Shown here one piece after another: positions 2,005 through 13,701 of a stretch of 15,590 bases of DNA. The DNA is from Alphaproteobacteria bacterium (GTDB lineage Bacteria > Pseudomonadota > Alphaproteobacteria > UBA9219). The position numbers and the translations under genes are program-made. The notes below the pieces were generated by a model that saw only the letters and a program-made list of their open reading frames with translations, did no database searches and was not told the origin of the DNA. Location of the stretch: NCBI GenBank assembly GCA_028716765.1, contig JAQUPC010000049.1, positions 1-15,590 on the forward strand, given 5' to 3'. Each line of letters starts with the position of its first letter. The stretch's first letter is position 1.

Positions 2005-5025
<3,021 letters not shown>

Positions 5026-5168: not shown

Positions 5169-5528
5169 ATGATGGCAAGGCTTACACATCCAAGACGCGT
5201 TATCGTTTATGCAAACGCGAACGGGAGGGAGCCTTTTACAAACTGGCTTAACGGCCTCCGCGACGCCACGGGGCGAAGACGCATTCTTGCCCGTGTCGCC
5301 CGTCTTGAACACGGTCATTATGGTGATTGTGAATCCGTTGGCGAAGGCGTGAGTGAATTAAGAATGTTTTTCGGCCCGGGCTACCGGGTTTATTTTGGTG
5401 AGCACAAAAACAGTATCGTCGTACTGCTTTGCGGGGGCGATAAAGGAAGTCAACGCCGGGATATTGAAGAAGCGAAAGCTTATTGGAGGGAGTATCTGGA
5501 CAATGAGAAACTATCGAACCTTCGCTGA
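5169..5528 (+). CDS. RelE/ParE-superfamily toxin (HI1419-like, toxin-first pair)
   Basis: Predicted type II toxin of 119 aa, in the family annotated as addiction-module killer protein (HI1419/Gp49-like), a RelE/ParE-fold group expected to act as an mRNA interferase or similar. Visible family marks are the [10 protein letters not shown] stretch (23-32), [14 protein letters not shown] (52-65), GPGYRVYF (69-76) and [12 protein letters not shown] (88-99), followed by a C-terminal AKAYW helix. Length is close to that of the family. AAGAGG at 5158-5163 supports ATG 5169 (5-nt gap) or the next ATG at 5172 (8-nt gap). Its end overlaps the antitoxin start by 26 bp, so the two are probably translated together. 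It lies divergent from uvrA and shares that upstream region. Confidence 0.88.
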
Positions 5529-5823
5529 CGTTGAGGAATCGTATTTCCGCGAACATCCGGAGGAAATCGACGATTACATCGCGATCCTTTTTGAGGAATT
5601 TGCCAAGGACGGCAATACGAAAGCGTTGTTGTCTTCTTTGCGCGTTCTTGGCCGCGTTAAGGGATTGTCGAAGCTTGCCGAAGAAGCGGGCATGAGCCGC
5701 AAGGGCGTTCAAAAGGCGCTTTCCGAAGAAGGCAATCCCGAGTTTGCCAGCGTCAACGCCATTTTGCATGCCATGGGTTACAAACTGACGCCGCAAAAAA
5801 TTGATGCGCGGCGCCAGCCGTAA
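5503..5823 (+). CDS. HTH antitoxin of the toxin-first pair (HI1420-like)
   Basis: Predicted antitoxin of 106 aa, in the addiction-module antidote family with a Cro/C1-type helix-turn-helix. The diagnostic part is GLSKLAEEAGMSRKGVQKAL followed by SEEGNPEFASV (residues about 54-84). It should bind and neutralise the toxin encoded at 5169 and repress the pair's promoter, for which the palindrome at 5130-5147 is the candidate site. ATG 5503 is chosen because [10 protein letters not shown] begins the conserved protein and GGAGGG lies 12 nt upstream; the open frame further upstream lies inside the toxin gene. The stop is 9 bp from the convergent stop of the transporter gene. Confidence 0.87.
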   Translation: MRNYRTFADVEESYFREHPEEIDDYIAILFEEFAKDGNTKALLSSLRVLGRVKGLSKLAEEAGMSRKGVQKALSEEGNPEFASVNAILHAMGYKLTPQKIDARRQP

Positions 5824-5832
5824 CAGGTTGGC

Positions 5833-6540
5833 CTAAAACTTCAGCATTTTCAGCTTGTAGCGGTCGAAGTGTTCGATGCCTTCGAAGGCTTTCAGCTTTT
5901 TGACGATGAAGGTCGTCAGCGGCAGCGCCAGAAACTCATAGATCGTTTTGGCGATCCATGAACTGATGATGACCGAAACCAGAACAGGCACCGGCATCAC
6001 GCCCGCAAAAGCGATCCCAAAGAAAACGAGGGAGTCCACAAACTGCGCCGCGGCGGTGGAGGCAACGGCGCGCAACGGGAAGTTATGCGCTTGCTGTTTC
6101 ACCTTCATTTTCGACATGACCCACGAGTTGGTCAGCTCGCAGAACACGTAGGCGATGTAAGAGGCAATAACGATGCGCGGCAGACTGTCGTTAATGACGG
6201 CAAAGGCTTCCTGCAGCTTGTAATCCGGCGACGGCGGCAAATGGATGGCGAGTTGCGTAAAGAAGATATACATAAAGCCGCAGAAAAGCCCTGTCCACAT
6301 CAGGCGGCGCGTGCGGTTGAACCCGTAGATTTCCGTCAGGATATCGCCGAAGACGGCATTCAACGGGTAAACGAACACGGATGCGGAAAGCGTGATCCCC
6401 GCCAGAACGAAAAGCTTTCCCGCCGTAACCCACGTGATGAAGAGGGCAAAAACGTAAAAGCATGCGATGACGTCGATATGGCGCGGGTGCCATTGATTGT
6501 CGGCGCTGGTTTCCTTGAGTTTCATATCGCGATCGAACAT
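5833..6540 (-). CDS. yhhQ: Queuosine-precursor transporter, YhhQ/VUT family (COG1738)
   Basis: Predicted inner-membrane importer of queuosine precursors (preQ0/preQ1 in E. coli YhhQ), feeding the tRNA wobble modification. The 235-aa product has about six hydrophobic segments. It carries family stretches such as VFVYPLNAVFGDILTEIYGF near the N-terminus, YVFCELTNSWVMSKMK in the middle, and AAQFVDSLVFFGIAF and ISSWIAKTIYEFLALP towards the C-terminus. ATG 6540 is preceded by AAGGA at good spacing; ATG 6546 is an alternative. The frame is open further upstream to 6615, but that segment is not family-like. It is divergent from the XRE regulator at 6680, with which it shares a palindromic operator. 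The substrate is inferred from the family. Confidence 0.88.
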   Translation of the reverse strand: MFDRDMKLKETSADNQWHPRHIDVIACFYVFALFITWVTAGKLFVLAGITLSASVFVYPLNAVFGDILTEIYGFNRTRRLMWTGLFCGFMYIFFTQLAIHLPPSPDYKLQEAFAVINDSLPRIVIASYIAYVFCELTNSWVMSKMKVKQQAHNFPLRAVASTAAAQFVDSLVFFGIAFAGVMPVPVLVSVIISSWIAKTIYEFLALPLTTFIVKKLKAFEGIEHFDRYKLKMLKF

Positions 6541-6638
6541 TTTCATTTCCTTCCCTATCGGATTGTTAAAACAGATTGCTGAAAAACTGTTACCAGATGA
6601 TAAACGCCGGCCCATGAAACTAAAAAGGTATATTTTCT

Positions 6639-6668
6639 ATTATAGTTACAGTAACTAATTTATGGCAA
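6639..6668 (-). promoter_or_regulatory. Promoter of the transporter gene
   Basis: On the minus strand TTGCCA (complement of 6663-6668) is followed after 18 nt by a perfect TATAAT (complement of 6639-6644). Transcription would start near 6632, leaving about 90 nt of leader before the ATG at 6540. The palindrome at 6643-6657 fills the spacer, so a bound repressor would block RNA polymerase. I see no preQ1 riboswitch in the leader. Confidence 0.65.
6643..6657. promoter_or_regulatory. Perfect 15-bp palindrome, candidate operator of the XRE regulator
   Basis: TAGTTACAGTAACTA has two perfect 7-bp arms around a central A. It sits between the -35 and -10 of the transporter promoter and covers the first part of the -35 of the regulator promoter. 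One dimer bound here could control both divergent genes. Confidence 0.7.
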
Positions 6669-6674
6669 GATAAT
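6646..6674 (+). promoter_or_regulatory. Promoter of the XRE regulator, probably giving a leaderless mRNA
   Basis: TTACAG (6646-6651) and GATAAT (6669-6674) are 17 nt apart. Initiation about 7 nt after the -10 falls on 6681, next to the ATG at 6680. No ribosome binding site precedes that ATG, which agrees with a leaderless transcript. The -35 overlaps the palindromic operator, suggesting autoregulation. Confidence 0.5.
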
Positions 6675-6679
6675 GCGTT

Positions 6680-7345
6680 ATGGCTACTATTTCACAGATT
6701 AAGGCCGCAAGGCTGCTGCTTAATTGGAAGCAAGGCGATCTCGCGCGCATCAGCGGCATGTCGCTGGCGACCATTGCCAATCTCGAGCAGGGCAAGGGCA
6801 AGCCGCGCGCGGGAACCCTTCAGGTTGTGCAGGATACGTTCGAAAAATTCGGCGTCGAGTTTCTCGAAGATCACGGCGTCGATCTGCGGCCGGAAAAGTT
6901 CAACGTCAAAATCCTTCACGGAGATGCGGGGCTTTTTCACGTGTGGGAGGATTACGAAAAAACCCTTGCCGGGGCTGAAGGTGGCGAGGTTTTGCTCAGC
7001 AATCTCGATCATCAGTATATGTACAAAAAATATAAGCAGCAATTAGAGGAAATGGTCTTGCGCCGGCCCGAGCGTAATATCCGCCTGCGTGGCCTCGTTA
7101 GGGAAGGCGATATGGTGCGCATCTGGCCGAACGAGGAATTCCGCGCCATTCCCGGCAAGCTTTTCTTCGGCTCGACGCCCGTTTATGTGTACGGCGACAA
7201 AACGGCGATCGTTAATTTCAAGGATTCCCTGCGTATCGTGTTGATCGACAACAAATCCATCGCCGAGGCGTTCCGCCAGCAGTTCGAGCATTTCTGGAAA
7301 AACGGCAAGCCCGTCTCCCGCCCGGTTTATATGGGGCAGAAATAA
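6680..7345 (+). CDS. XRE-type regulator with a TrmB-like C-terminal sensor domain
   Basis: A 221-aa predicted transcription regulator. Residues 4-58 form a Cro/C1 helix-turn-helix (NWKQGDLARISGMSLATIAN, then LEQGKGKPR). Residues about 72-221 form a separate domain. Its end, LFFGSTPVYVYGDKTAIVNF plus a final AEAFRQQFEHFW helix, resembles the C-terminal effector region of TrmB-like regulators; that match is from memory and is weaker than the HTH call. It is divergent from the YhhQ-family transporter and shares a palindrome with it, so queuosine precursor or a related metabolite is a reasonable but unproved ligand. There is no ribosome binding site; the start is fixed by the conserved MATISQIKAARLLL opening and the promoter position. 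Confidence 0.82.
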   Translation: MATISQIKAARLLLNWKQGDLARISGMSLATIANLEQGKGKPRAGTLQVVQDTFEKFGVEFLEDHGVDLRPEKFNVKILHGDAGLFHVWEDYEKTLAGAEGGEVLLSNLDHQYMYKKYKQQLEEMVLRRPERNIRLRGLVREGDMVRIWPNEEFRAIPGKLFFGSTPVYVYGDKTAIVNFKDSLRIVLIDNKSIAEAFRQQFEHFWKNGKPVSRPVYMGQK

Positions 7346-7379
7346 GCAAAAAATAATTAGCTGTGGATGACTTGCGATT

Positions 7380-7394
7380 GTTCTTGATTTGTTC
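7380..7394. promoter_or_regulatory. LexA (SOS) box upstream of ssb
   Basis: GTTCTTGATTTGTTC is identical over all 15 bases to the box before uvrA, including the 7-base spacer. It lies 78 bp before the ssb ATG. It predicts DNA-damage induction of ssb through LexA. I could not assign a confident -10/-35 pair around it. Confidence 0.83.
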
Positions 7395-7402
7395 TTTTGA
7401 AT

Positions 7403-7429
7403 CGGGAAGTATGGGTTGTCATCTTCCCG
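7403..7429 (+). other. Hairpin in the ssb upstream region
   Basis: CGGGAAG (7403-7409) and CTTCCCG (7423-7429) form a perfect 7-bp stem with a 13-nt loop, between the LexA box and the ssb start. It could be a leader structure or a DNA-binding site. There is no T run after it, so it is not a terminator. Confidence 0.4.
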
Positions 7430-7472
7430 GACCGCGGCTAGATCAAAACGTCACACACAGAAAGGGCATCAC

Positions 7473-7940
7473 ATGGCAGGCAGCGTGAACAAGGTCATTC
7501 TCGTCGGCAATCTTGGCCGCGACCCCGAAGTCCGGACGTTTCAAAACGGCGGGCGCGTCGCCAACCTGACTCTGGCTACGTCCGAGAACTGGAAGGACAA
7601 GGCGACCGGCGAGCGCAAGGAAAGGACCGAATGGCACCGCGTGGTGATCTTCAACGAAAATCTTGTCGGCGTGGCCGAGCGCTATCTTAAAAAAGGCGCG
7701 AAGATCTACATCGAGGGCCAGCTTGAAACCCGCAAGTGGCAGGACCAATCCGGACAAGACAAATACTCGACCGAAGTTGTGCTACGTCCTTATCGCGGCG
7801 AGCTGACCATGCTGGATAGCAAGGGCGGCGGTTCAGGCGGAGGCAACGATTCCTTCGGTTTGAAGGATGATTCAGGCGCGGCGGCTCTCGGCGGATCATC
7901 ATCCGCAGGTCCCGATCTCGACGACGACATTCCGTTTTGA
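7473..7940 (+). CDS. ssb: Single-stranded DNA-binding protein SSB
   Basis: SSB coats single-stranded DNA in replication, recombination and repair, and recruits partners through its tail. The 155-aa product has an OB fold over about residues 1-110 ([49 protein letters not shown]). A Gly/Ser-rich linker follows, then the acidic tip DLDDDIPF that binds partner proteins. AAAGGG lies 6 nt before ATG 7473; the frame is open upstream to 7416, but only this start gives the usual MAGSVNKV opening. Length is normal. The LexA box at 7380 points to SOS control. As I recall, ssb is often divergent from uvrA in alphaproteobacteria; here four genes lie between them. Confidence 0.97.
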
Positions 7941-13047: not shown

Positions 13048-13413
13048 CTAACCCACCAAACTCCGCAGTTTTCCCAGAACTTCGTTGATCACTGTGTGCG
13101 GGGCCTTGGCGATGAATTGCGCGCGCCGCGCGCGCCAGTCGAGGCTTTTGACTTGATCGCTCAAAACAACGCCCTTGATTTTGCTTCCGGCGGGAAGGGC
13201 GGCTTCAAACGGGTATCTCTTAACGTGGCTTGTGACCGGGCAGAATAGGGCGAGAGAGGTTTTCGCGTTATAAGCGCGCGGCGAAACGACAAGCGCCGGA
13301 CGTTTGCCCGCTTGTTCGTGGCCCGATTGCGGATCAAAATTAAGCCAGACGATATCGCCGCGCTCAGGCACATAGCCGGATGATTGCGGGCGTGGCGTTG
13401 CGGAGGTTACCAT
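13048..13413 (-). CDS. mazF: MazF-type endoribonuclease toxin
   Basis: Toxin of a type II pair; MazF proteins cut mRNA at short sequence motifs. The 121-aa product follows E. coli MazF closely: YVPERGDIVWLNFDPQSGHE, AGKRPALVVSPRAYN with the conserved Arg, PVTSHVKRYPFE with the conserved Thr, then GVVLSDQVKSLDWRAR. Its ATG overlaps the mazE stop in ATGGTAA (13407-13413), so translation is coupled. It has about ten extra N-terminal residues relative to E. coli MazF. It runs towards the outer-membrane gene on the other strand. Confidence 0.93.
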   Translation of the reverse strand: MVTSATPRPQSSGYVPERGDIVWLNFDPQSGHEQAGKRPALVVSPRAYNAKTSLALFCPVTSHVKRYPFEAALPAGSKIKGVVLSDQVKSLDWRARRAQFIAKAPHTVINEVLGKLRSLVG

Positions 13414-13649
13414 GCTTCGCGGCCAACCGGTTTGCCGGTTTCAACGCTGTCGTGGCAATTCTCCGGCGTTACCTTCGCCAGCAAGGTCTTCAAATCATAG
13501 GCGTCCTTCACGGCGGGTTCGATAATAACCCGCCCATCGTCGGTGTCGATGCGCACTTCGGAGCCTTCTTTCAGGCCCAGGGATTTGGCGATCGCTCCAG
13601 GAATCCTCACGCCGAGGCTGTTGCCCCATTTGGATATGATCATGTTCAT
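13407..13649 (-). CDS. mazE: MazE antitoxin (AbrB-like)
   Basis: Antitoxin of 80 aa with an N-terminal swapped-hairpin AbrB/MazE DNA-binding domain (ISKWGNSLGVRIP; EVRIDTDDGRVIIEP) and a C-terminal toxin-binding tail ending in TPENCHDSV ... GREAW, much like E. coli MazE (TPENLHENI ... KEVW). GGAGG 5 nt before ATG 13649 fixes the start; a TTG at 13661 lies before that site and is less likely. First gene of the mazEF operon, driven by the promoter at 13673-13701, which MazE probably represses. Confidence 0.92.
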   Translation of the reverse strand: MNMIISKWGNSLGVRIPGAIAKSLGLKEGSEVRIDTDDGRVIIEPAVKDAYDLKTLLAKVTPENCHDSVETGKPVGREAW

Positions 13650-13665
13650 AAACGCCTCCAATGTT

Positions 13666-13701
13666 TATACAAAGTATATACATTGTGTTGCGCGTTGTCA
13701 A
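13666..13701 (-). promoter_or_regulatory. mazEF promoter with operator at the -10
   Basis: On the minus strand TTGACA (complement of 13696-13701) and TATACT (complement of 13673-13678) are exactly 17 nt apart, a near-consensus sigma-70 promoter. The -10 is part of the inverted repeat TATAC-AAA-GTATA (13666-13678) and touches a second palindrome, GTATATAC (13674-13681). These are likely sites for MazE or MazEF binding. Confidence 0.75.

Follow-up and report, generated by a model that had tools for sequence, protein, structure and literature searches.

The 15,590-nucleotide alphaproteobacterial contig JAQUPC010000049.1 (assembly GCA_028716765.1), referred to here as the window, carries a divergent pair of genes encoding a queuosine precursor transporter and a regulator that joins an XRE-type helix-turn-helix (HTH) to a predicted PLD-fold domain, with a palindrome between them that is a putative operator. 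It is moderately likely that the regulator, probably as a dimer, binds this palindrome at 6643-6657, represses both itself and the transporter, and is itself controlled by a small molecule. The two genes are credible as a local regulator and transporter pair, the regulator being one of a large family, and the connection with queuosine is inferred from the transporter.

The regulator gene (6680..7345, plus strand) encodes 221 aa. Its HTH domain (residues 4-56; 6689..6847, plus strand), of which C.Kpn2I is a solved relative, matches the Pfam family HTH_3 with 35.6 bits, above the cut-off of 23 that marks XRE proteins, and HTH_3 was likewise found at the N-terminus of 40/40 homologues in a Pfam scan. 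In an AlphaFold model, the XRE HTH is followed by a TrmB-like PLD fold (residues 72-216; 6893..7327, plus strand) similar to that of TrmB and TrmBL2; hence the C-terminal sensor domain characteristic of the TrmB family is present as judged by predicted fold. The same C-terminus has no Pfam match above cut-off, and TrmB is absent from the 17 Pfam families listed for the 40 homologues (E <= 1). The domain does not contain the HxKxxxxD motif of catalytic PLD enzymes, there being no histidine in the protein with a lysine at +2. The regulator does not appear to be a type II antitoxin, since it scores 36.1 with the HipB-like antitoxin model TIGR03070 (cut-off 71.65) and its neighbours are the transporter and an ssb-like frame, which we take from its translation to be ssb.

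The transporter (5833..6546, minus strand), a YhhQ/QPTR protein of the Vut_1 family, scores 95.8 bits with TIGR00697 (curated cut-off 50.95) and 147.9 with PF02592 (cut-off 27.2). Thus the first-pass annotation had named both genes correctly, and its division of the regulator into an HTH and a TrmB-like C-terminal domain agrees with the HTH_3 score and the predicted fold. The transporter may start at 6546 or at 6540, the latter having the better Shine-Dalgarno spacing (GGAAGG, 6554-6549), and the mechanically called open reading frame (ORF) starts at 6615. A pair consisting of a RelE/ParE-family toxin (TIGR02683) and an HI1420-type antidote (TIGR02684) is found beside the 3' end of the transporter, at 5169-5823 on the plus strand.

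Transcription of the transporter is likely to begin from a minus-strand promoter at 6639..6668, composed of a -35 TTGCCA (6668-6663), an 18-nt spacer and a -10 TATAAT (6644-6639). This element, also recognised in the first-pass annotation, has 11/12 consensus matches. When the 133-bp intergenic region was shuffled with its dinucleotides kept, 7/1000 shuffles attained this score, as does one further site in the window, at 13701. By contrast, the proposed regulator promoter TTACAG-17-GATAAT does not stand as written, because TTACAG agrees with the consensus TTGACA at 2/6 positions and a scan prefers GTTACA-18-GATAAT (6645..6674, plus strand). This is itself a weak candidate with 9/12 matches, of a quality found at about the chance rate (3 sites of at least 9/12 in 5401-7800, against 1.8 expected). 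As the GATAAT stops 5 nt ahead of the regulator ATG, before which no Shine-Dalgarno sequence is visible, the regulator mRNA may be leaderless.

The palindrome, at 6643..6657 (-37 to -23 relative to the ATG of the regulator), is a perfect 15-bp sequence of the form TAGT-N7-ACTA, present exactly as first reported, TAGTTACAGTAACTA. It is the sole match to this sequence in the window with up to three mismatches allowed (expected 0.07), and TAGT-N7-ACTA has a single occurrence (expected 0.02). The first-pass annotation placed it so as to block both promoters. On the transporter side it overlaps the promoter spacer and the adjoining 2 nt of TATAAT; on the regulator side it contains the -35-like hexamer of the weak candidate promoter. 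A protein bound at this position would be expected to repress both genes.

The case for an operator comes from comparison, as its geometry recurs across the regulator family. From 139 family ORFs (E < 1e-15, at least 180 aa) and one contig-end fragment, 128 members were retained following removal of duplicate C-termini, and these gave 100 upstream regions, 28 being dropped for want of a usable start or sufficient upstream sequence. When the 120 bp upstream of each were scanned for inverted repeats with 4-bp arms, whatever their sequence, and gaps of up to 16, relative to shuffles keeping dinucleotides, the four top-scoring repeats all had a gap of 7 and a half-site led by TA: TACC in 6 regions (expected 0.02), TATG in 8 (0.35), TAGT in 5 (0.1) and TACG in 4 (0.08). 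With the TA restriction, chosen after this first scan, TANN-N7-NNTA was found in 42/100 regions of 150 bp, whereas 30 mononucleotide shuffles, which keep base composition only, averaged 14.6 and reached at most 27; TA-led dyads at other gaps occurred in 10-22 regions against shuffle means of 14-15. Without the restriction, gap 7 still ranked top (79/100; mean 58.3, maximum 68), with gaps 8 (75) and 14 (74) likewise above their shuffles.

A second set of previously unseen members, drawn from genomes of the same order and so not phylogenetically independent, yielded 49 usable regions from 100 matches once duplicates, missing starts and short upstream sequences were removed. Here the TA-led gap-7 dyad was present in 14/49, compared with a mean of 4.9 and a maximum of 11 in 40 shuffles again preserving composition only, and with 1-7 at other gaps. 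The half-sites included TACC in 8 regions (expected 0.15) and TATG in 3 (0.3), with neither TAGT (expected 0.22) nor TACG (0.03) in any of the 49; the gap-7 geometry is therefore reproducible across the family, although these 49 regions add no further case of the TAGT class. Among 215 controls, those of 725 upstream regions with > 60% AT, there was no gap-7 peak (10.7%), the highest values being at gaps 5 (19.5%) and 6 (14.4%). The half-site also tracks the sequence of the recognition helix, TAGT accompanying EQ[GNA] in 4/11 cases against 1/138 others and TATG accompanying P[STL][ILV]N in 10/15 against 1/134, associations that are inflated by shared ancestry. Three regulators have a pair of TACC sites at a distance of 21 bp, or roughly two turns of the helix.

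The association of the two genes is itself conserved. Relatives were identified in genome contigs through an alignment-based search, of which 80 of 148 matches were used; a single-protein search of the same contigs gave no relatives. Orthologues of the regulator were found at three loci, L001 (16.7 kb; 74% identity), L002 (11.5 kb; 65%) and L019 (8.2 kb; 75% over 80 residues, being cut by the contig end), and in 3/3 the transporter lies divergently upstream with 58-62% identity. Since only these two of the 10 window proteins compared have matches in the three loci, the pair has been kept in otherwise differing surroundings. TAGT-N7-ACTA is found at exactly -37 in the orthologue L002 and the paralogues L009 and L104. 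The orthologue L019 has it at this position with a single mismatch (TAGTATTTTAAGCTA), and L003 (-36) and L107 (-37) also depart from it at one base; the middle seven bases differ among the window, L002, L009, L104 and L019. On contig 88 of genome G041 (L231:2206-2760), overlapping remnants of a transporter and a regulator look like a decayed copy of the pair, the regulator having 64% identity across the C-terminal half.

The wider family is a large, multi-copy one of uncultured Alphaproteobacteria, of which no description was met within the searches made. It has members (E <= 1e-20) in 32/33 genomes of the order surrounding the ortholog genome G001, one genome of 2.5 Mb having as many as 19. 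Some form tandem arrays, as at L037:5793-12230, where nine members occupy about 6.4 kb, and at L119 and L059. By simple gene calling, 89/128 non-duplicate members have a divergent upstream neighbour; 65 of these neighbours are at least 120 aa long and within 320 bp, and 61 were scanned after exclusion of four that were themselves family regulators in arrays. Of these, 16 matched family-3 solute-binding proteins (SBP_bac_3), 9 Vut_1 and 3 phosphoribulokinase/uridine kinase, the remainder being single cases or without a match. A single similarity cluster of 16 genes (at L010, L011, L013, L014, L015, L020, L021, L029 and others) lies divergent to family regulators. Distant regulators, 28-39% identical where measured, are divergent to distant Vut_1 genes at L016, L033, L069, L090 and L099, and at L025 a Vut_1 gene lies 1.2 kb from a family regulator; among 34 Vut_1 match rows, 7 intact transporter genes adjoin a family regulator within flanks of about 1.5 kb, one such regulator being cut by a contig end. 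Of the 98 plasmid records matched at E <= 1e-5, not one extended over 80% of the regulator; the 9 matches in viral contigs were to the HTH part only, and those in PADLOC were at the level of the HTH.

The promoter match, inverted-repeat enrichment, pair conservation and predicted folds are computed results; that the regulator binds DNA, dimerises, represses rather than activates and binds a ligand, and which ligand this would be, is inferred. In the mechanism proposed, the XRE HTH of a probable dimer would bind TAGT-N7-ACTA at 6643-6657, covering the spacer and -10 edge of the transporter promoter together with the regulator's own -35-like region and so repressing both genes. A small molecule would be the ligand of the PLD-fold domain, which has no HKD motif, much as the corresponding domain of TrmB is known to bind sugar; it would alter DNA binding, and the output of the importer would thereby be matched to need. 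The ligand would most likely be the substrate or product of the transporter, namely preQ0, preQ1 or queuine; that it is a queuosine precursor, as the transporter would indicate, is a tentative assignment.

The strongest of these alternatives retains the same local regulation and replaces the 7-deazaguanine with another metabolite, such as a purine or a different Vut_1 substrate. This is a serious contender, if somewhat short of an even chance, and as it differs from the preferred explanation in the ligand only, the confidences attached to the two overlap and do not sum to one. Genomes contain up to 6 Vut_1 matches (34 match rows in 20/42 genomes, some of them pieces of the same gene), and a number of these may transport something other than queuosine precursors; solute-binding proteins are likewise neighbours of family members (16/61); and E. 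coli YhhQ has been reported as a member of the PurR regulon (PMC5372724). The transporter in the window, by contrast, scores above the cut-off for queuosine precursor transporters. Queuosine synthesis genes in the three ortholog genomes point both ways. G001 has TGT and QueA and lacks QueD, QueF and any convincing QueC, and G002 has TGT, QueA and QueF with no convincing QueC and no QueD, these being weak absences from draft metagenome-assembled genomes; G003 has TGT (in pieces), QueA, QueC, QueD and QueF. Read plainly, G001 would need preQ1, G002 preQ0 or preQ1, and G003 neither, such that two of the three look salvage-dependent and a simple salvage-only account had to be rejected. Moreover, G003 carries QueC, QueD and QueF together on contig C219, and the apparent lack of QueC and QueD from G001 and G002 could therefore arise if just one contig were missing. 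QueC matches of 18-33 bits were not counted, being mostly short partial matches within longer frames, and many such matches nominally pass the cut-off of 22, including that of G001 (22.5 bits with its frame neighbours).

QueG (PF08331) was found in 0/4 genomes (G001-G004), three of which have QueA, and in 7/14 controls, and the last step of queuosine synthesis may be performed by another enzyme, such as QueH. The TGTs of G001 and G002 (L241 and L242) carry a GGLAVG pocket, with no match to the pocket pattern in L243, a partial gene, or L244. GGLAVG is described as the pocket of E. coli-type TGT, and GG[LS][AS]G as that of queuine-inserting enzymes, and a Bartonella TGT with GGLAVG is reported to use queuine too (PMC11570991). 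Import of a queuosine precursor by the transporter is therefore plausible, and the genome context does not identify the regulator's ligand. The first-pass idea of a protein sensor of a queuosine precursor is partly supported, by the gene pair, the operator pattern, the fold and the absence of a preQ1 riboswitch match, a queuosine precursor being a plausible ligand.

A second alternative, that the regulator is an ordinary autorepressor whose palindrome serves its own gene alone, the transporter being a bystander with an adjacent promoter, is unlikely. XRE regulators are reported to be commonly autoregulatory (PMC12565409), and inverted repeats are found upstream of many relatives with other divergent partners or none. 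Against this, the pair is kept in all three orthologues among otherwise different genes, the putative site overlaps the 11/12 transporter promoter, and a number of different family members have a divergent Vut_1 gene next to them.

An origin of the palindrome by chance, in a promoter region rich in AT, is improbable. By itself the palindrome is weak evidence and unremarkable, and was rejected as stand-alone support: perfect palindromes with arms of at least 7 arise in 48/2000 dinucleotide shuffles of the intergenic region, and six others occur in the window, two of them overlapping. It is rescued by the comparison with family upstream regions, in which enrichment was specific to one spacing in two sets of regulators without a control peak, and by its occurrence in the same register in two orthologues and two paralogues. 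Exact conservation of the palindrome was rejected, as only the arms and spacing hold, in 2/3 orthologues (one with a mismatch), and TAGT-N7-ACTA is missing upstream of the orthologue L001; of the gene pair and palindrome that the first-pass annotation proposed to look for in relatives, the former is thus seen in full and the latter as arms and spacing only. The least probable alternative is that the regulator is incidental and the transporter is controlled by its leader of about 86-92 nt (6547..6632, minus strand, the end at 6632 being estimated from the -10), through an RNA element of an undescribed kind. preQ1 riboswitches control yhhQ elsewhere (PMC11625349), whereas, as first noted, no preQ1 riboswitch is seen here: at gathering thresholds the whole window and 19 related loci gave no match to this or any other relevant Rfam family, and a scan of 6500-6700 relaxed to E of up to 5 matched only an unrelated family.

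Elsewhere in the window are a PemK/MazF-like toxin and MazE-like antitoxin pair (13048-13661, minus strand), and an Rfam rpsB element (RF01815; 13791-13898, plus strand) followed by a frame that is presumably rpsB, judging by its translation. An imperfect inverted repeat at 3504-3627, with 33-nt arms of 73% complementarity, lies inside a long frame that we likewise take to be uvrA, and is possibly an in-frame palindromic insertion.

More broadly, these regulators might form a lineage-expanded XRE/TrmB-like family with one operator geometry and paralog-specific half-sites, acting as sensors for individual uptake genes, with the member in the window sensing a 7-deazaguanine (preQ0, preQ1 or queuine); as a whole this is a doubtful proposition. 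If true, a dedicated protein sensor would do what riboswitches do elsewhere, adding protein-based control of queuosine precursors beside preQ1 riboswitches. The family would likewise provide a natural set of paralogous regulators, with shared geometry and varying half-sites, from which to read the XRE recognition code, and help to match the uptake genes of uncultured Alphaproteobacteria to ligands. The first-pass annotation knew of no described regulator of this type for queuosine salvage, and among the literature matches listed, in which subscription journals were mostly outside coverage, no title or abstract shown describes a queuosine transporter controlled by an XRE/PLD-fold protein. That a protein should control yhhQ does have a precedent, in PurR of E. 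coli (PMC5372724).

Comparison with known systems shows both likenesses and differences. TrmB has a winged helix as its DNA-binding part. The regulator resembles archaeal TrmB and TrmBL2 in having a PLD-fold, sensor-like domain on a DNA-binding protein, and differs in that the DNA-binding part is an XRE HTH and that it is not TrmB by profile. Relative to XRE controllers of the C.Kpn2I type, it has an additional PLD-fold domain and a TANN-N7-NNTA pattern. The transporter is like YhhQ/QPTR proteins (COG1738, PF02592, TIGR00697), passing the TIGR00697 cut-off; reported control of these is by riboswitch or PurR, whereas in this case the divergent partner is an XRE/PLD-fold protein and no match to a known riboswitch was found. 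Palindromes upstream of XRE genes have been described (PMC12565409), as has a radiation of XRE paralogs in Caulobacter and phage (PMC10688885). The family shares with the latter a lineage-specific XRE expansion in Alphaproteobacteria, and is distinguished from it by up to 19 matches (E <= 1e-20) per genome and by half-sites specific to groups of its members.
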